A stretch of DNA of 41,249 nt from a virus: the IMG/VR virus record IMGVR_UViG_3300031825_000031, positions 1 through 41,249 of that record, one strand, 5' to 3'. This document shows, in pieces, positions 17,326-38,497 of the stretch (the first letter of the stretch is position 1; every line of letters begins with the position of its first letter). The position numbers and the translations under genes were made by a program. The notes under the pieces were generated by a model that made no database searches, was not told the origin of the DNA, and saw only the letters and a program-made list of their open reading frames with translations.

Positions 17326-17364
17326 CTTTCGCCCTCGGGGCTGGTTTCGCCCCTCAGGGGCATG

Positions 17365-17398
17365 AAAAAACCCGCCGAGGCTCAGCCAGAACGGGTTC
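17365..17398 (-). terminator. Second terminator before the late operon
   Basis: On the minus strand AACCCG pairs with CGGGTT around an inner GGCT/AGCC helix and is followed by six T. It lies between the early operon and terS, 40 bases upstream of the terS start, and would block late transcription unless bypassed. Confidence 0.78.
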
Positions 17399-17407
17399 TA
17401 TAAATGC

Positions 17408-17433
17408 AAAAAGCCAGCGTTTCGGCTGGCTTT
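17408..17433 (-). terminator. First terminator before the late operon
   Basis: On the minus strand AAAGCCAGC pairs with GCTGGCTTT around a 6-base loop and runs into five T. Together with the hairpin at 17365-17398 it makes a double terminator downstream of the putative antiterminator gene, as at lambda tR'. Confidence 0.82.
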
Positions 17434-17474
17434 ACGTTTCGGCTGGGCACCCAACTGCTCAGCCGAGGGAAAAT

Positions 17475-23918: not shown

Positions 23919-24134
23919 ATGAACGGTTTCGATGTAGTGATCAAGGAAATTCAGGCGGCAACGTCCGAACTGCAAGAATCCAACGATTACGCGGAATTCC
24001 TCGCCGAAGAGCGCGCGAAACTCCAGCGCAATATCGACATCAACGCCGTCACCTTTCGCCACGCTCCCCGCGTTGCCCGCGACCTGACCAATGACCGTAT
24101 CGCCATGTTCTGCGGCGATAAGAAGGTGGGCTGA
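23919..24134 (+). CDS. First early gene, 71-residue protein of unknown function
   Basis: ATG 23919 with GGGAGG upstream; about 38 bases of leader from the promoter. The protein (MNGFDVVIKEIQAATSELQE, then LAEERAKLQRNIDINAVTFR) is largely helical and may form a coiled coil. In-frame ATGs further upstream lie inside the promoter and are rejected. No family recognised. Confidence 0.75.
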   Translation: MNGFDVVIKEIQAATSELQESNDYAEFLAEERAKLQRNIDINAVTFRHAPRVARDLTNDRIAMFCGDKKVG

Positions 24135-24137
24135 ATC

Positions 24138-24287
24138 ATGTGCGAAATCAGCATCTATCAATACTTTCTGCAAGCCGTTGGGCTGGTGACGCTGGCCCTG
24201 CTGATCGGCAGCGTCATCTTCATTGCTGCCAATCCTGAGCGTGTTGGGAATTTTATGGACCATGACAAGAAAGGCGGCCGGAAATGA
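24138..24287 (+). CDS. 49-residue single-pass membrane protein
   Basis: MCEISIYQYFLQAVGLVTLA followed by LLIGSVIFIAANPERVG; one membrane helix at about residues 12-32, basic C-terminus (DHDKKGGRK). It starts four bases after the previous gene and overlaps the next as ATGA. Confidence 0.66.
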   Translation: MCEISIYQYFLQAVGLVTLALLIGSVIFIAANPERVGNFMDHDKKGGRK

Positions 24288-24412
24288 ATCCGCATGACCT
24301 TTCCTGTTTCAACGAGCAAGAGCAGGAACACGTGCGCTTCTTCGAGGGCGTCTGCTTTGTACTTACGTTTTATGGCGTCGTCGGGCTGATCCTTCTGGTG
24401 TTGCCGTCATGA
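24284..24412 (+). CDS. 42-residue membrane protein
   Basis: MNPHDLSCFNEQEQEHVRFF then a membrane helix (CFVLTFYGVVGLILLVLP). Start and stop both overlap the neighbouring genes, supporting a translated unit. No function known. Confidence 0.62.
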   Translation: MNPHDLSCFNEQEQEHVRFFEGVCFVLTFYGVVGLILLVLPS

Positions 24413-24882
24413 ACGCAAAGCGAGCCGAACAATTCAAGCAATGGCTCTCGCGCATGGGCGCCGAAGTGCTGATGCCCACAAATCCGTATGAGCTTGCCCG
24501 CTTCATCGCGCACGGTGGAACGCACGTCGTCTATGTGAACGGCAAAGGAAAGATCAGTGCCGCAGGTTTCGCCCTGGAAGCGCTGGCTGCATTCGATGGC
24601 GGCAAGGTGCTGTCGATGGGATTTGCCAAAGCTGCCAGAACAGCGAATTCAAAACGCAAGGCCGTGCTTATGCAGCGTGACGGTCGCGGATGCTTCTACT
24701 GCGGCATAGATATAGCCGACGAAGACATGACCGTTGAGCACCTTATCGCACTCGACAAAGGCGGCCAGAACAGACTCGAAAACATGGCTCTTGCGCATGC
24801 CAAATGCAACAACAAGGCAGGGAATCTATCGCTGACCATGAAGATCAAGTTGCGCGACAGGATGCGGGGCTATTGCTCATGA
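24409..24882 (+). CDS. HNH endonuclease
   Basis: 157 residues. The C-terminal half is a clear HNH nuclease: CFYCG at residues 95-99, VEHLIALDKGG with His111, LENMALAH with Asn125, and KCNNKAGN with the last metal-side residues; Cys95, Cys98 and Cys133 suit a structural zinc. The N-terminal half (RAEQFKQWLSRMGAEVLMP, then THVVYVNGKGKISAAGFALE) is a small separate domain. It may cut DNA during recombination or replication. Because it lies inside a run of overlapping early genes, it looks like a resident phage gene and not a recent intruder. Confidence 0.87.
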   Translation: MNAKRAEQFKQWLSRMGAEVLMPTNPYELARFIAHGGTHVVYVNGKGKISAAGFALEALAAFDGGKVLSMGFAKAARTANSKRKAVLMQRDGRGCFYCGIDIADEDMTVEHLIALDKGGQNRLENMALAHAKCNNKAGNLSLTMKIKLRDRMRGYCS

Positions 24883-24977
24883 GCTACCCCACTACCGAAT
24901 GGCGCTGCCCGTATTGCCGCGCGATCAATGAAACCGTCCGGATTTGTCGTGTTTGTAAAAAAGGGAGTAAGCCATGA
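24879..24977 (+). CDS. 32-residue zinc-knuckle protein
   Basis: MSYPTTEWRCPYCRAINETV, then CRVCKK: a complete CPYC...CRVC rubredoxin-like knuckle. ATGA overlaps on both sides make it likely that it is translated. Confidence 0.65.
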   Translation: MSYPTTEWRCPYCRAINETVRICRVCKKGSKP

Positions 24978-25165
24978 AATTCGTCCCGCCCTATTTCTAC
25001 CGTCCGGACGTGTGCCAGTGCCAGCTGTGCGTTGCGCATCGCGCAGAGCAGGAAGTTCAGCGCGTGGTTCGTGTGCTGAATAGCTGGCCAAAAGGTGGCG
25101 TGATTGGCCGCGCCCATACCGTTCGTAAACCTCAATTGAAATCAGTGAAGGGGGCAAGAGCATGA
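24974..25165 (+). CDS. 63-residue phage protein, unknown
   Basis: MKFVPPYFYRPDVCQCQLCV, then a helix (AEQEVQRVVRVLNSW) and a basic tail. The CxCxxC cluster may bind metal. Overlaps the exonuclease start. Confidence 0.66.
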   Translation: MKFVPPYFYRPDVCQCQLCVAHRAEQEVQRVVRVLNSWPKGGVIGRAHTVRKPQLKSVKGARA

Positions 25166-26058
25166 ATGCACGTGAGCAATGGTTACAAGACCGTATGACC
25201 GGGATCGGCGGGAGCGATGCCGCTGCCGTTCTCGGCCTATCGAAATACAAGACGCCGCTGCAGGTGTATCAGGAAAAGCGCGGCGAGATCGGCGGCATTC
25301 CTGATAACGAGCCGATGCTTTGGGGCCGCGTTCTTGAGCCGGTAATTCGCCAGCAGTATGCAGAGCGCACCGGCCGCACCGTTCGCTTGCCCGAGGGCAT
25401 CATTCGGCACCAGACGCACCCTTTCATGCTTGCCACGGTTGACGGCATTACCGATGACGGCCGCCTGGTGGAAGTAAAGACAGCGCGCACCGCGCAGGAT
25501 TGGGGCGAGCCCGGTACCGATGAAGTGCCACAGGCATATCTCATTCAAGTGCAGCACTACCTCGAAGTCACGGCCCTGCCGGTTGCAGATGTTGCCGTGC
25601 TGATTGGCGGCTCTGATTTCCGCATGTACGAGATTGAGGCAGACCGCGAGCTGCAGGGAATGATCATCGATGGCGAGGCTGATTTTTGGCGCCGTGTCGA
25701 GCAGGGAATTCCGCCTGATCCGGTGAGCTTTGCAGATGTGCAAGCGATGTTCGGGAAGTTCAGCAAGGAGGGCGCCGTAGAAGCAGACGCCGCAACTGCC
25801 GAAGCCATCGCCAATATCAAGCGGATCAAGGAAATGGTGAAGGCATTGGAGGAAGAGGAAGAAACAACCAAGGCCGTGATCATGAAGGCGCTGGGAGAGA
25901 ACGACACCCTTATCCAAAAAGGCAAAGTGCTTGCCACATGGAAAGCGCAAGCCGGTGCCAAACGCTTCGATTCCAAAACATTCCAGACTCACCATCCCGA
26001 TTTGTATGCGCAGTTCGTCGCCATTGGTGAGCCAACCCGCCGTTTTTTACTCAAGTAG
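25162..26058 (+). CDS. YqaJ-family exonuclease (lambda Exo-like)
   Basis: 298 residues starting MNAREQWLQDRMTGIGGSDA. Motifs in order: GIGGSDAAAVLGLSKYKTP (residues 14-32), the Glu of RVLEP (59), the active site TVDG...VEVKT with Asp94, Glu104 and Lys106, and QVQHYL (129-134). This is the PD-(D/E)xK fold of lambda exonuclease, which degrades the 5' strand of double-stranded DNA to leave 3' tails for annealing. The C-terminal third has a coiled coil (RIKEMVKALEEEEETTKAVI), usual in phage versions. The next gene is the expected annealing partner. Confidence 0.93.
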   Translation: MNAREQWLQDRMTGIGGSDAAAVLGLSKYKTPLQVYQEKRGEIGGIPDNEPMLWGRVLEPVIRQQYAERTGRTVRLPEGIIRHQTHPFMLATVDGITDDGRLVEVKTARTAQDWGEPGTDEVPQAYLIQVQHYLEVTALPVADVAVLIGGSDFRMYEIEADRELQGMIIDGEADFWRRVEQGIPPDPVSFADVQAMFGKFSKEGAVEADAATAEAIANIKRIKEMVKALEEEEETTKAVIMKALGENDTLIQKGKVLATWKAQAGAKRFDSKTFQTHHPDLYAQFVAIGEPTRRFLLK

Positions 26059-26071
26059 GAGGTTTTAGATC

Positions 26072-27169
26072 ATGAACCAGGTTGTAGAAAACCCATTTGG
26101 CAACGCTCCTGTTGCGGCCAGACCGTCAACGAATGCTGTTGCCCAAACTGATCAGCAACGCGCCATTGCAGAAGTTCAGGCCGCGATGATGATTGCCCGC
26201 CTTAACCCGCGCGATCCGATTGCATCGATGGATCGCATCCTGAATGCCTGCGCACGTCCCGCCCTTGCGGATTCTGCTGTTTACACCTATAGCCGGGGCG
26301 GTTCCGATGTATCAGGCCCGTCGATCCGGCTGGCTGAAACGCTCGCGCAAAACTGGGGAAACATCAAAACCAGCGTGCGCGAACTGGATCAGGTCAACGG
26401 CGTTTCTACCGTGCAAACCATCGCTTGGGACTTGGAGACGGGTTATCAATGCGACAAGGTTTTTCAGGTACCGCACATTCGCTACACCCGCCAAGGCGCA
26501 AAACGCCTCGAAGACCCTCGCGACATTTATGAGTTGATCGCCAACCAAGGCGCGCGCCGCCTTCGTGCCTGCATTCTGGCCGTTATCCCTGGCGACGTTA
26601 CCGAGGCCGCTGTCTCGCAATGCGAAGTGACCATGAAGGCGAAGGCAGATACATCGCCCGAGGGTATCGCCAAGATCGTGGCCGCGTTTGAAGCCTTTGG
26701 CGTCACCAAGGAACAGATCGAGAAGCGCATTCAGCGCCGCCTTGATGCCATCCAGCCCGCCCAGGTTGTGAGCCTCAAAAAGATTTACGCCAGTTTGCGC
26801 GACGGCATGAGCCAGCCTTCTGAATGGTTCGACGCGGTTGAAGCTTCTGAGGGCGATAAAAATCCGGCAAGCAAGACCGAGAACGTCAAGGATGCATTGC
26901 GGAAGCGCAAGGAAGCGGCTGAGCAAGAGGTAGAGCAGCCCCAGCCAACACCGGCCAGCGATAACCCGTTCGATGAAGCACAGCCACAGCAAGACTTGGC
27001 CGGCGATCCTGTTCTTAAATTCGCAGACGTTGCCAGCAAGCTCGAACGCTCTCCCGATCTAGACACGCTCGACGTTGCCGCCGACCTGATCCAGTACGTG
27101 CCGGACCTGCAGCAGCGCGAAGACCTCGGCGCGATTTACAAGCGCAAGGCAGCAGAGTTTAAGCAGTAG
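26072..27169 (+). CDS. Probable single-strand annealing protein (RecT-like role)
   Basis: 365 residues with AGGAGG before ATG 26072. The N-terminal two thirds is conserved-looking: IAEVQAAMMIARLNPRDP, YSRGGSDVSGPSIRLAETLA, PHIRYTRQGAKRLEDPRDIY, NQGARRLRACILAVIPGDV. I recognise this pattern from phages where it follows a YqaJ exonuclease, the standard exonuclease-annealase pair. The C-terminal third is acidic and low-complexity (EVEQPQPTPASDNPFDEAQP), then a short helical end (LDTLDVAADLIQYVPDLQ...). Sequence similarity to RecT, Redbeta or Erf cannot be shown by eye, so the function is inferred from the neighbour. Confidence 0.72.
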   Translation: MNQVVENPFGNAPVAARPSTNAVAQTDQQRAIAEVQAAMMIARLNPRDPIASMDRILNACARPALADSAVYTYSRGGSDVSGPSIRLAETLAQNWGNIKTSVRELDQVNGVSTVQTIAWDLETGYQCDKVFQVPHIRYTRQGAKRLEDPRDIYELIANQGARRLRACILAVIPGDVTEAAVSQCEVTMKAKADTSPEGIAKIVAAFEAFGVTKEQIEKRIQRRLDAIQPAQVVSLKKIYASLRDGMSQPSEWFDAVEASEGDKNPASKTENVKDALRKRKEAAEQEVEQPQPTPASDNPFDEAQPQQDLAGDPVLKFADVASKLERSPDLDTLDVAADLIQYVPDLQQREDLGAIYKRKAAEFKQ

Positions 27170-27177
27170 CAGTTTAT

Positions 27178-27306
27178 GGGGTGCTCACAACGGTTCAATA
27201 CCTGTGAAGGTGGATACCCGGGGACTTAAGGCAGAACGGTCCCGGTCAGCGATAGCGCCCCATTGCGGAATGGGGAGAATGCCACCGGCGAAATGTGCAG
27301 CACCCC
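27178..27306 (+). ncRNA. Candidate structured RNA in the intergenic gap (129 nt)
   Basis: The 168-bp gap contains a nested set of helices. P1: GGGGTGCT (27178-27185) with AGCACCCC (27299-27306), perfect and enclosing everything. P2: CACA..GGT with ACC..TGTG (27186-27206), loop TCAAT. P3: GGTGG (27209-27213) with CCACC (27282-27286). P4: ACC..GGGAC with GTCCC..GGT (27216-27246). P5: CCCCATT (27258-27264) with AATGGGG (27269-27275), perfect. An 8-bp closing helix with no conflict between the inner ones is unlikely by chance. It is not a terminator (no strong T-run after P1 apart from CCCTATTTTT), and I cannot match it to a known family. Confidence 0.6.
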
Positions 27307-27337
27307 GCCCTATTTTTAACAGTAAAGGAGCAGCGAA

Positions 27338-27793
27338 ATGGAAACGAATCAAACCCATTTAATCGAAATTAACGGCGTGAAGTTGGAAGTTGATCTTCGC
27401 ACCGCGAAACGGATTGAAACCCTGCAGGTAGGTAGTCGCGTGAAATGCCTCATCAAGAAATACAACGATGAATTCGATGTACTGCCTGGCGTAATCGTCG
27501 GCTTCGAGCCTTTCGAAAACCTGCCATCGATTGTCGTGGCGTACTTGGAAAACGACTACAGCTCGGCCTCCATCAAATTCAAGTCTTACAACGCCAAAAC
27601 AAAAGACTTCGAGCTGGTTGCTGACATCGACCATAACTCACTGGAAGTCAACAAGACAGACATTCTCAACAAGTTTAATCGAGAGCTCGAGAAGAATCGG
27701 ATTGAGATTGAGGAAATCGAGCAGCGCAAGCAGTTCTTCCTCGACAAATTCGGCGTCTATTTCGCCGACCAAGCCGCGCTGCAAGCGGCATAG
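27338..27793 (+). CDS. Early phage protein, unknown (151 residues)
   Basis: AAAGGAG precedes ATG 27338. METNQTHLIEINGVKLEVDL begins a beta-rich domain (SRVKCLIKKYNDEFDVLPGV, then ENLPSIVVAYLENDYSSASI) followed by a C-terminal coiled coil (FNRELEKNRIEIEEIEQRKQ). It lies between the annealing protein and the acidic-tailed protein, downstream of the RNA candidate. No family recognised. Confidence 0.78.
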   Translation: METNQTHLIEINGVKLEVDLRTAKRIETLQVGSRVKCLIKKYNDEFDVLPGVIVGFEPFENLPSIVVAYLENDYSSASIKFKSYNAKTKDFELVADIDHNSLEVNKTDILNKFNRELEKNRIEIEEIEQRKQFFLDKFGVYFADQAALQAA

Positions 27794-27839
27794 CCAGCGC
27801 CCCACTCCCTCATTTCATGTTGAAAAAGGAGAAGTAACG

Positions 27840-28367
27840 ATGTTCAGCCTCAAAAATGCAAAAGCGAAACTCTCGAACGTCAACCTTCGCAGTGAGCTTC
27901 ACGGCGACAAGCATGTGCTCGCGACCGATCTACACATCGAAGCCACGGTCAGCAACGATGTTCTGAGCGAATTCCACCCTTCCCTCAAGTCAGCCATGTA
28001 CGAGAAGGCCGACGATGCGCAGGGTGAACTGCTGGACGAGCCCGGCCGCCTGACCGCCCTGAAATTACCCAACTTGGCCCAGCCGCTGAAATGGAATGCT
28101 GAGCTGGAAGGTTACGAAACGACCGTCCATTACGGCATCGGCGGCGACTCCGATATCACGATGATCGAGTGCGAGGTCGATTCCTTCAAGTTCGAATGTA
28201 AGGACGGCGGCAGCGTGAATATAAAGTTCCGCGTCATCGCGCACCCATCCGAGGAACAAGTCGGCAAGTTGTCCGGAATGATCCAATCCGAAATCGATAT
28301 CAGCCTGACACCGCCCGAGGAACAAGTCGAGCAGGAAGAACAGCAGGAACTTGCCGAAGCCGCCTAA
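27840..28367 (+). CDS. Possible ssDNA-binding-type early protein with acidic tail
   Basis: 175 residues from ATG 27840 with AAAGGAG upstream. MFSLKNAKAKLSNVNLRSEL leads a beta-rich body (IECEVDSFKFECKDGGSVNI, then KFRVIAHPSEEQVGKLSGMI) and ends in a strongly acidic tail, PPEEQVEQEEQQELAEAA. Single-stranded DNA-binding proteins of phages often have such a tail, and the place next to exonuclease and annealase suits one. The family itself is known to me only as a hypothetical phage protein. Confidence 0.75.
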   Translation: MFSLKNAKAKLSNVNLRSELHGDKHVLATDLHIEATVSNDVLSEFHPSLKSAMYEKADDAQGELLDEPGRLTALKLPNLAQPLKWNAELEGYETTVHYGIGGDSDITMIECEVDSFKFECKDGGSVNIKFRVIAHPSEEQVGKLSGMIQSEIDISLTPPEEQVEQEEQQELAEAA

Positions 28368-28372
28368 CCACT

Positions 28373-28401
28373 TTCCGCGCTTCTCCTCCCTGAGAGCGGA
28401 A
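28373..28401 (+). repeat. Hairpin after the acidic-tailed gene
   Basis: TTCCGC (28373-28378) pairs with GCGGAA (28396-28401) and TCTC (28382-28385) with GAGA (28392-28395). It precedes a terminator-like hairpin and may compete or cooperate with it. Confidence 0.5.
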
Positions 28402-28405
28402 CCTT

Positions 28406-28429
28406 CCCATCGGCAACGGTGGGCTTTTT
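28406..28429 (+). terminator. Terminator-like hairpin upstream of the helicase-methyltransferase gene
   Basis: CCCATCG pairs with CGGTGGG (one T-G pair) around GCAA, then C and five T. It lies within the early operon, 40 bases before the next ribosome site, and may reduce transcription of the large downstream gene. Confidence 0.68.
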
Positions 28430-28475
28430 CCAGCCGGTTCCTTGAGCCGGTTGAACAAAGCAAAAAAGGATGAAT

Positions 28476-30989
28476 ATGGACTATCTCGAATTCCTGCAAG
28501 CGAAGTGCAAATTCTCGAAGGCCTTGGGCATTGAGATCGACCCTGCCGAAATCAATCCGGCGCTGAAGCCGCACACACGCGACATCGTTCGCTGGGCTGT
28601 CGCAGGCGGCCGCCGCGCGATCTTCGCCGCCTTCGGCCTGCACAAGACCGCGACCCAACTCGAAATCATGCGGTTGATCGGTGCGCATGAATCGGCAATG
28701 CGCCTGATCGTCCTACCTCTCGGGGTGCGTCAGGAGTTCAAGCGCGAGATCGCGGAGCGGTTCACGGGCGATTACGGCATGGACCTGCGCTTCATCCGTC
28801 GCGACAGCGAAATCGAAGATGACCGCACGGTCTACATGACGAACTACGAGAGCGTACGCGAAGGCCTGATCAATCCCGGCTTGTTCCATGCCGCCAGCCT
28901 GGACGAAGCGAGCGTGTTGCGCAGCTACGGGAGCAAGACATATCAAGAGTTCTTGCCGCTATTCGATGGCGTGAAATACCGCTTTGTAGCCACGGCAACG
29001 CCCAGCCCGAACCGCTTCAAGGAACTAATCCACTACGCCGGGTTCCTCGGCGTCATGGACACCGGGCAGGCATTGACCCGCTTCTTCAAGCGCGACAGCA
29101 GCCAGGCCGGGAACCTGCAGCTTCACCCGCACAAGGAAGCCGAGTTCTACCTGTGGCTGCACAGCTGGGCATGCTTCATCCAGAAACCGAGCGACCTTGG
29201 TTACAGCGACGAAGGCTACGAGCTGCCGGAACTGGACGTGCGCTATCACGAAGTGCCGAGCGACTACGCAGCGGCCGGCGCCGACCGTGACGGCCAGAAC
29301 CTGATGTTCCCCGATGTCGCCCTGGGCGTGCAGGCGGCTAGTGCCGAGAAGCGCAACAGCCTGGACGCGCGGGTCGGCAAGGTGCAGGAGATCATCGGGC
29401 AGGGTGCTGACGATCATTTCATCGTCTGGCACGACCTAGAGGATGAACGCCACGCCATTCAGAAGGCGGTACCGGATGCCGTCAGCGTGTGGGGCTCGCA
29501 AGACCTCGATGAACGCGAACAGCGCATCATCAATTTCAGCGACGGTGCGCACAGGATTCTTTCGACTAAGCCGGTCATTGCCGGTAGCGGATGCAACTTC
29601 CAGCGGCATTGTCACCGCGAAATATTCGCCGGCATCGGGTTCAAGTTCAACGACTTCATCCAGGCGATCCACCGCGTTCACCGTTTCCAGCAGCAGCACC
29701 AGGTGCGCATTGACATTATCTACAGCGAGGCCGAGCGCGAAGTGCTGGCCAGCCTGCAAGAGAAGTGGGAACAGGACAAGCAGATGCGTGTCCGTATGAG
29801 CGAGATCATCAAGGAATATGGGCTGTCGTCGCTGGGGTTCGAAACTGAGCTGGCCCGTACGATTGGCGTCGAAAGGATCGAAGCCAAGGGCGAACACTTC
29901 CACGTCGCGAACAATGATTGCGTGATCGAAACGCAAGGCATGGACGAAAACAGCGTCGGCCTGATCGTGACCTCGATCCCGTTCAGCAATCACTACGAAT
30001 ACACGCCGAGTTATAACGACTTCGGCCACACCGAAAGCAATGATCATTTTTGGGCTCAGATGGACTATCTCACGCCCGAACTGTTGCGCGTGTTGCAACC
30101 CGGCCGGATGTACTGCTGCCATGTGAAGGACAGGATCCTGTTCGGCAATGTCACCGGTGCCGGCGTGCCGACCGTTAGCCCTTTCCACTGCGAAGCCATC
30201 ATGCACGCTCGCAAGCATGGGTTCGACTACATGGGGATGATCACCATCGTCACCGACGTGGTGCGCGAGAACAATCAGACCTACCGCCTCGGCTGGTCGG
30301 AGCAGTGCAAGGATGGCACGAAGATGGGCGTCGGTTCGCCGGAGTATGTGCTGCTGTTCCGCAAGCCGCAGACCGACCGCAGCCGCGGCTATGCCGACGT
30401 GCCGGTGGTGAAGTCGAAGGACGAATACAGCCGGGCGCGCTGGCAGGTCGATGCACATTCCTTCTGGCGCTCGAGCGGTGACCGCTTCCTGTCCGCCGAG
30501 GAAATGGCAGGCTACGGCCCGGATGTGCTCGCCAAGATGTTCACCGAGCGCAGCCTGCAGACGATCTACGATTATGAGCAGCACATCGCCCTCGGTGAAG
30601 CGCTGGACGCGCGCAATGCCCTGCCTTCGACCTTCATGAGCATTGCCCCGGGCAGTCACGATGATGAGGTATGGCACGACGTGAACCGCATGTTCACCCT
30701 CAATAGCGAGCAGTCGGCGCGCAACCTGAACAATCACATCTGCCCGCTGCAATTTGACATCGTGGACCGGCTGATCACGCGCTACAGCAACAAGGGCGAC
30801 GTGGTGTTCGATCCATTCGGCGGGCTGTTCACGGTGCCTTATCGAGCGATAAAGCTGGGTCGGAAGGGGCGCGCGGTCGAGCTGAACACCGGCTACTACT
30901 TCGACGGGATTCGGTACCTGCAGACGGCTGAAAAGCAGGTAGGCATGCCGACGTTGTTCGACTTCGAAGAAGTGCAGGCGGCAGCATGA
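28476..30989 (+). CDS. SNF2-type helicase fused to an N4/N6 DNA methyltransferase
   Basis: 837 residues. I start at ATG 28476 because AAGGA sits at normal spacing there; ATG 28470 is too close. Residues 1-430 carry SF2/SNF2 motifs: a degenerate Walker A (FGLHKT, 53-58), DEAS (143-146), TATPSP (173-178) and QAIHRVHR (396-403). Residues 470-837 are a beta-class amino-methyltransferase with motif IV TSIPFSNHYEY (499-509) before motif I DPFGG (779-783). The catalytic motif is S-I-P-F where S-P-P-Y is usual. The protein probably modifies phage DNA against host restriction, the helicase half moving along DNA. I know closely similar proteins from phages of Betaproteobacteria. Confidence 0.9.
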   Translation: MDYLEFLQAKCKFSKALGIEIDPAEINPALKPHTRDIVRWAVAGGRRAIFAAFGLHKTATQLEIMRLIGAHESAMRLIVLPLGVRQEFKREIAERFTGDYGMDLRFIRRDSEIEDDRTVYMTNYESVREGLINPGLFHAASLDEASVLRSYGSKTYQEFLPLFDGVKYRFVATATPSPNRFKELIHYAGFLGVMDTGQALTRFFKRDSSQAGNLQLHPHKEAEFYLWLHSWACFIQKPSDLGYSDEGYELPELDVRYHEVPSDYAAAGADRDGQNLMFPDVALGVQAASAEKRNSLDARVGKVQEIIGQGADDHFIVWHDLEDERHAIQKAVPDAVSVWGSQDLDEREQRIINFSDGAHRILSTKPVIAGSGCNFQRHCHREIFAGIGFKFNDFIQAIHRVHRFQQQHQVRIDIIYSEAEREVLASLQEKWEQDKQMRVRMSEIIKEYGLSSLGFETELARTIGVERIEAKGEHFHVANNDCVIETQGMDENSVGLIVTSIPFSNHYEYTPSYNDFGHTESNDHFWAQMDYLTPELLRVLQPGRMYCCHVKDRILFGNVTGAGVPTVSPFHCEAIMHARKHGFDYMGMITIVTDVVRENNQTYRLGWSEQCKDGTKMGVGSPEYVLLFRKPQTDRSRGYADVPVVKSKDEYSRARWQVDAHSFWRSSGDRFLSAEEMAGYGPDVLAKMFTERSLQTIYDYEQHIALGEALDARNALPSTFMSIAPGSHDDEVWHDVNRMFTLNSEQSARNLNNHICPLQFDIVDRLITRYSNKGDVVFDPFGGLFTVPYRAIKLGRKGRAVELNTGYYFDGIRYLQTAEKQVGMPTLFDFEEVQAAA

Positions 30990-31339
30990 AACACATCATT
31001 TTCCCCATCGGCCTAGCCGAGAAATTCAAGGCACATGCCGGCGAGAAATACCAGCCCAGCAATGGCACTGAAGGCGAATTCTTCTTCTCCGCTTGGTGCG
31101 AGCACTGCGCGCGCGACAAGACTATGAGCGAGGGCAAGGATTACGACGAGTGCGATGAAAGCGAAATCTGCGAAATCATCGGCGCGACGATGCGCTTCAA
31201 GGTCGAGGATCCTGGCTATCCGAAGGAATGGGTTTACGGCACTGATGGCCAGCCGAAATGCACGGCCTTCGTCCAGGTAGGCGACAAGATTGTTTTCCGC
31301 GACCCGCTCACCACCGATATGTTCGAGGCCAAACCATGA
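30986..31339 (+). CDS. Conserved early phage protein, Cys-rich, unknown
   Basis: 117 residues, MKHIIFPIGLAEKFKAHAGE, overlapping the methyltransferase stop as ATGA. Contains FFFSAWCEHCARDKTMSEGK, then YDECDESEICEIIGATM, with five Cys that may bind zinc, and ends PKCTAFVQVGDKIVFRDP. It often accompanies the helicase-methyltransferase in related phages (recollection). No role known. Confidence 0.76.
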   Translation: MKHIIFPIGLAEKFKAHAGEKYQPSNGTEGEFFFSAWCEHCARDKTMSEGKDYDECDESEICEIIGATMRFKVEDPGYPKEWVYGTDGQPKCTAFVQVGDKIVFRDPLTTDMFEAKP

Positions 31340-38192: not shown

Positions 38193-38497
38193 TACTTGAT
38201 CCTTTTTGGCAACATTGAAATAACATCATCCATTTCTGACTTCCCCGATTTAATGTCATCCATGAAACTGTAAAATTTTTCCCAAACATCCGCGCGCCAC
38301 GCCACGAATGATTGTGCTTCTTTCTGGTATTTGTTCGGATACGCGGCATAGGAGCAGGCTCTATCAATCGACGGGATCTTGTTCTCTGGATGTTTATATC
38401 CATAAGCCTCCGCCTCTTCGTCCAGAAGTCTTTCAACCATAATTTCCTGATTCTGGACGAAGAGACTGAGCAGCTTTTCCTTATTCAGCTTGATCAT
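38192..38497 (-). CDS. Small tail-fibre-associated protein (possible chaperone)
   Basis: 101 residues, MIKLNKEKLLSLFVQNQEIM. A helical protein with ENKIPSIDRACSYAAYPNKY and QSFVAWRADVWEKFYSFMDD, a pattern met in tail fibre assembly proteins near fibre genes. It overlaps both neighbours. It is AT-richer than the core tail genes, suggesting exchange with the fibre. Confidence 0.7.
   Translation of the reverse strand: MIKLNKEKLLSLFVQNQEIMVERLLDEEAEAYGYKHPENKIPSIDRACSYAAYPNKYQKEAQSFVAWRADVWEKFYSFMDDIKSGKSEMDDVISMLPKRIK

Follow-up and report, generated by a model that had tools for sequence, protein, structure and literature searches.

What occupies the longest intergenic gap in the recombination operon of this phage, and could it be an RNA that functions in its own right? 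The window, that is, the whole 41,249-nucleotide stretch of IMG/VR record IMGVR_UViG_3300031825_000031 analyzed here, carries in order a RecE-like exonuclease gene, the gene of a putative annealing protein (phrog_3657), the gap, a phrog_15098 gene, an unmatched gene, and a helicase-methyltransferase fusion. An earlier note, made from the letters alone, placed a multi-helix RNA at 27178-27306, between an annealing protein and the next gene, and this location is confirmed: the gap spans 27170-27337 (168 bases, the largest in this operon stretch), between a stop at 27169 and an ATG at 27338. The designation of the upstream gene is supported by the adjoining RecE/YqaJ exonuclease, but its own match, phrog_3657, is a family of unknown function, and the annealing role is taken from the neighbor. 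The two flanking genes are:

26072-27169, plus strand: upstream gene, putative annealing protein, phrog_3657 match
27338-27793, plus strand: downstream gene, phrog_15098, function unknown

The fusion gene at 28470-30989 encodes 839 amino acids joining a phage helicase (phrog_16) to an N6/N4 DNA methyltransferase domain, and a frame at 24409-24882 looks by eye like an HNH-type nuclease (CFYCG..HLIALDKGG..NN).

The earlier note saw no open frame preceded by a ribosome site in the gap, a fair description: it is crossed only by a GTG-started frame of 52 codons and an antisense frame of 57 codons, the latter rejected as a protein (best phage relative with E 0.1, not significant). In the reading of that note, the element also resembles neither a terminator nor a nameable riboswitch class. 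No terminator-like or sigma-70-like site was found in the gap, nor any sigma-70-like promoter on the plus strand of 24000-31000, and the element has no GC-rich stem with an immediate T run, as an intrinsic terminator would. ARAGORN detects no tRNA gene in the window, ARAGORN and the Rfam models detect no tRNA or tmRNA at the element, and none of the 4227 families of Rfam 15 matches 27100-27400 at its gathering threshold or at E <= 10.

On the plus strand, 27178-27306 is predicted to adopt a closed, branched, multi-helix fold with a minimum free energy (MFE) of -54.6 kcal/mol (z -2.74). The opposite strand folds almost equally well (z -2.53), and 3.1% of sampled 129-nt plus-strand windows reach z <= -2.74; folding energy by itself is poor evidence for an RNA, and the case is carried by comparison. 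The perfect 8-bp closing stem of the earlier description is present, with GGGGTGCT (27178-27185) pairing with AGCACCCC (27299-27306) across 113 bases, and it extends over a 1-nt bulge by four more pairs to 12. The window has 51 perfect 8-bp stems that enclose loops of 80-140 nt, but no second stem of 8+4 pairs with one bulged base or none. The parts of the element are listed below; L008 is the contig that carries its homolog.

27178-27306, plus strand: structured RNA element; homolog at about L008:5465-5584 by covariance model and local alignment
27178-27189, plus strand: 5' arm of P1, GGGGTGCTCACA, pair probabilities 0.8-1.0
27190-27200, plus strand: segment ACGGTTCAATA, with a similar counterpart, ACGTTTAATA, in the homolog by local alignment
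27191-27194 with ACCG at 27284-27287, plus strand: putative P2, evaluated by folding energy
27199-27212, plus strand: P3 hairpin TACCT/AGGTG, details not conserved
27212-27246, plus strand: P4, with compensatory changes on both sides of two pairs in the homolog, whose 13-nt loop segment is identical
27230-27233, plus strand: GGCA of the P4 loop, invariant in both members, which may pair with 27280-27283 in a pseudoknot
27258-27275, plus strand: P5 hairpin CCCCATT-GCGG-AATGGGG, 100% paired, with compensatory changes on both sides of two pairs and on one side of a third
27278-27283, plus strand: conserved AATGCC, whose TGCC (27280-27283) is complementary to GGCA at 27230-27233
27294-27306, plus strand: 3' arm of P1, TGTGCAGCACCCC, one bulged base

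P4 is composed of a conserved GGATACC, a GGT beyond a bulge, the variable stem GGGACT/GGTCCC, and the conserved loop segment TTAAGGCAGAACG, whose ends form a T-G pair. An extension of this helix (UACC/GGUA in L008, and ACC/GGU, possible in the window beyond a 2-nt bulge) would explain why GGATACC is conserved. Pairing of CGGU at 27191-27194 with the ACCG of P2 could free TGCC for GGCA; we offer this refolding as a hypothesis, because the P2 fold is ~8 kcal/mol less stable than the MFE fold, the pseudoknot being left out of the energy. Elsewhere in the window, strong inverted repeats lie just past the terminase small-subunit gene (17341-17465, z about -5, partly terminator-like by eye), and a near-perfect inverted repeat, CTCTTCGTCCAGAA..TTCTGGACGAAGAG, lies inside a minus-strand frame (38412-38466, z -6.3).

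The comparison comes from a covariance model built from the window sequence alone and run over 97 related loci (640 kb), where the only match besides the element itself was L008 5485-5574 (E 0.0076 for the 640 kb). The identical sequence is carried by L009; these two contigs of a second phage lineage appear to be one lineage, so that the family would number two members. The homolog is situated in a 405-base intergenic region, ~1.4 kb downstream of the L008 annealing gene homolog and on the same strand, and both copies are intergenic and on the coding strand of related recombination operons. Aligned locally, the two gaps score 190 versus a shuffle mean of 103 (sd 14, z 6.2), and none of 3000 shuffles reaches this score. 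Conserved between the two are the 13-nt P4 loop segment, the P5 tetraloop (GCGG/GCAG, or GCRG), and AATGCC, while two pairs in P4 and two in P5 are changed on both sides and one further P5 pair on a single side. When the partners are slid by 1-3 columns, only 0-1 double changes are seen. The column-shuffle control is weak with two sequences (33 of 500 shuffles reach four double changes), and the case therefore rests on alignment score, position, strand, and paired changes together.

The earlier note looked to compensatory changes in P1, P3, and P5 for support and to loss of pairing in homologous gaps for refutation. The L008 homolog retains the pairing of P4 and P5 and the loops, with compensatory changes in P5 and also in P4, and the claim of a structured multi-helix RNA is upheld to that extent; the outer stem and P3 are unsupported as drawn. 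P3 differs in the homolog, and the only comparable closing stem in L008 uses bases that also form the long stem of a neighboring RNA, a competition that kept us from a full-length consensus with P1 and P2. For the proposed GGCA/TGCC pseudoknot, both partners are conserved but do not vary between the two members and hence give no covariation, so it is possible, if unproven. All the features proposed as marks of a window/L008 family, namely compensatory P4 and P5, the TTAAGGCAGAACG loop, and AATGCC, are present in the pair.

Could the gap instead be a recombination scar or a decayed gene that folds well as GC-rich DNA, its likeness to L008 arising by chance? The modest energy, the similar folding of both strands, and the lack of the element in most relatives would suit such an origin, but an alignment score that none of 3000 shuffles reaches and four pairs with compensatory changes on both sides speak against it, and we consider it very unlikely. 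As judged from sequence comparison, the phage encodes at 27178-27306 a genuine structured noncoding RNA, whose family has not been described. Its supported parts are the hairpins P4 and P5, the conserved loops, the orientation with the operon, and the intergenic placement.

We looked for a third member in phages, plasmids, viral contigs, and about 770 proteobacterial genomes, and none emerged. The collections were scanned for exact patterns, and absence from the genomes is weak evidence because the search of these 770 or so Proteobacteria applied strict filters. The gap DNA has no significant similarity in phages and plasmids (an Aeromonas match was rejected as antisense to a dnaN-like gene), and in 399 Burkholderiales genomes it gave a single 31-base chance match and model R1 gave none. 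Exact terminal-stem and P4-stem patterns have no matches in viral contigs; the loop-plus-AATGCC and GATACC-plus-loop patterns have true matches only in the L008/L009 contigs, other loop-pattern matches failing the model and looking coding. The core covariance model R2 (75 columns) recovers the L008/L009 contigs only from 73 phage or genome records, and no credible member from 369 genomes of the class and 399 of the order. Its two best genome matches lie within rhodanese-like (L172) and ComEC-like (L183) genes, and the remaining ones score lower and equal the chance expectation in number. The element is single-copy in the window and the record, and a MITE-like terminal-inverted-repeat element was rejected on that ground, on the lack of a flanking direct repeat by eye, and on the lack of copies in the phage, plasmid, and 399 Burkholderiales genome searches. 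A literature search found no published description of the element.

Relatives of the upstream gene were found at 46 viral loci and 7 in genomes, and relatives of the downstream gene at 80 loci; none of the inspected flanking gaps at these loci resembles the 27170-27337 gap. In the closest operon relatives, L003-L005, the element is absent; because they join the annealing gene directly to a homolog of the 27840 gene, the RNA and phrog_15098 look like an inserted cassette missing from these operons. One relative of the upstream gene has at the same place a 100-base gap of unrelated sequence that folds strongly (L006:1785-1884, -34.8 kcal/mol).

The position directly 5' of phrog_15098, and the appearance of a single cassette, would be expected of a cis-regulator of that gene, whether riboswitch-like, a leader, or a translational switch; a cis-regulator is among the roles suggested in the earlier note. 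Yet in L001, L002, L071, and L072, which carry phrog_15098 relatives, the gaps are short and lack the element, so the RNA is not conserved with the gene, and the L008 homolog precedes a different frame of 145 amino acids. Moreover, there is no terminator, and the downstream ribosome site is not sequestered, its opening costing nearly the same energy with the element as without it (7.0 versus 6.2 kcal/mol). Given unrelated downstream genes in the two members and an open ribosome site, a gene-specific cis-regulator is quite unlikely, which leaves a processed RNA and an antiterminator-like RNA among the roles suggested. EAR-type antiterminators and riboswitch leader RNAs have several helices, conserved loops, and a possible pseudoknot. 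The element shares these features, but it has neither an Rfam match nor a visible expression platform, and its downstream genes differ between the two members.

The L008 region has at least three structured stretches, among them L008:5356-5465, another structured RNA beside the homolog, with a relative in Aeromonas phage ST4 (72.6% identity, E 3e-8). This relative sits in a 595-nt unannotated gap (fold z -5.3) directly 5' of tRNA-Pro/Thr/Gly, and parts of the gap match 177 phage records. A further structured stretch beside the homolog is L008:5626-5700 (z about -3.3), and TCGTGTGAG at L008:5458-5467 has two possible partners, the upstream arm of the first RNA and the downstream CTCACATGA, in structures that are mutually exclusive there. 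Unannotated phage RNA modules were located at:

L161:3986-4580
L162-L168, around 2000-2150
L072:3581-3707

The ends of module B, the part of the ST4 gap most often listed among the matches, are fixed (GTGGTGAATGCGCAGGCTGATG and GCCGGAGATCAGCACCGGCCACCAC), and its interior varies in sequence and length (88-220 nt overall); as read from the sequence, the end hairpins have complementary loops, GCTGAT/ATCAGC. Module B immediately precedes phage tRNA genes in L164, L166, and L167 and lies in the Q-to-holin late leader of L162 and HK620; it has no Rfam family. The HK620 stretch, whole or in part, is present in 166 of 5426 E. coli genomes and is unannotated in the matches listed.

The element may be considered a mobile phage RNA module of the same system as the tRNA-adjacent arrays of ST4, HK620, and many enteric phages. 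Its homolog adjoins an ST4-type RNA, L072 has module B directly behind its homolog (73% identity) of the phrog_15098 gene next to the element, and GGACTTAAGGCAG recurs within a module of Aeromonas phage 62AhydR11PP. However, our models match none of these modules, the 13-nt GGACTTAAGGCAG match could be chance, and the GTGGTGAATGCGCAGGCTGATG..GCCGGAGATCAGCACCGGCCACCAC scaffold is absent from the window; the element was rejected as an ST4/HK620-type module-B RNA, and common membership in a mobile system is unlikely. The shared setting of the element and module B would be an association only, the ties to tRNA-adjacent arrays running through the neighboring RNA. RNA C and RNA D of phage T4 are stable structured RNAs of a phage tRNA region. 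As structured phage RNAs of similar size they may be set beside the element, but the window has no tRNA gene, and the relation is only through the neighbor of the L008 copy.

A cis-acting processive antiterminator, in which the nascent RNA would bind the elongating RNA polymerase and read through early-operon terminators, has a precedent in the put RNA of phage HK022. This RNA of ~70 nt has two stem-loops, lies downstream of early promoters, and acts alone from the nascent transcript, reaching terminators 10 kb or more away (PMC9378689). The variable stems with their conserved loops, the early-operon position, and the coding-strand orientation are all consistent with this mechanism, indifference to the following gene would be expected, and the element resembles put in folding on its own within an early phage operon and in not having to regulate any single gene. 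In contrast to put, the element is 129 nt long, a closed and branched multiloop, and lies well inside the operon rather than near an early promoter; in addition, it has one copy only in the window, and the core model finds nothing in the 10 kb of HK022 from the annealing gene to the replication genes. On this analogy, antitermination is a possible role, to which we give limited credence, although more than to any other rival of the preferred explanation. Another kind of phage-borne small RNA of proteobacteria is represented by the STnc100/Pas prophage sRNAs (RF02076; PMC13192938). Pas sRNAs end in a terminator-typical stem-loop and U tract (PMC13192938), whereas the element has no terminator stem-loop and Rfam gives no match to the window.

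The explanation that we tentatively prefer, at slightly less than even confidence, is that the early transcript is processed to yield a stable RNA, which would act through its loops and not regulate one neighboring gene. It fits best because the two members have different genes downstream, the ribosome site is unblocked, and there is no terminator; the ST4-type RNA beside the L008 copy and module B behind the L072 gene also count in its favor. Against it are the two members only, the lack of a detected promoter or terminator, and the absence of the element from L003-L005. Transcription of the early recombination operon would include the element, whose RNA may be cut out of, or protected within, the early transcript to give a stable RNA. 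The latter would act in trans, its conserved loops serving to bind the translation machinery or a protein of host or phage origin, and TTAAGGCAGAACG of P4, GCRG of P5, and AATGCC near the 3' side may be joined via the GGCA/UGCC pseudoknot. We infer all four of these: transcription, processing, the pseudoknot, and trans action.

Structured RNAs are seldom sought in phage intergenic gaps, and this one has comparative support and belongs to no described family; the same loops on rewritten stems suggest a specific binding partner. In addition, the element leads to a far larger unannotated set beside phage tRNA genes. A broader and quite doubtful proposal is that it represents one type in an undescribed set of phage RNA modules, located by tRNA genes and in early operons and built of fixed scaffolds with hypervariable interiors. 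If this is true, such modules might serve as decoys or adaptors against host RNA-targeting defense, or retune translation.
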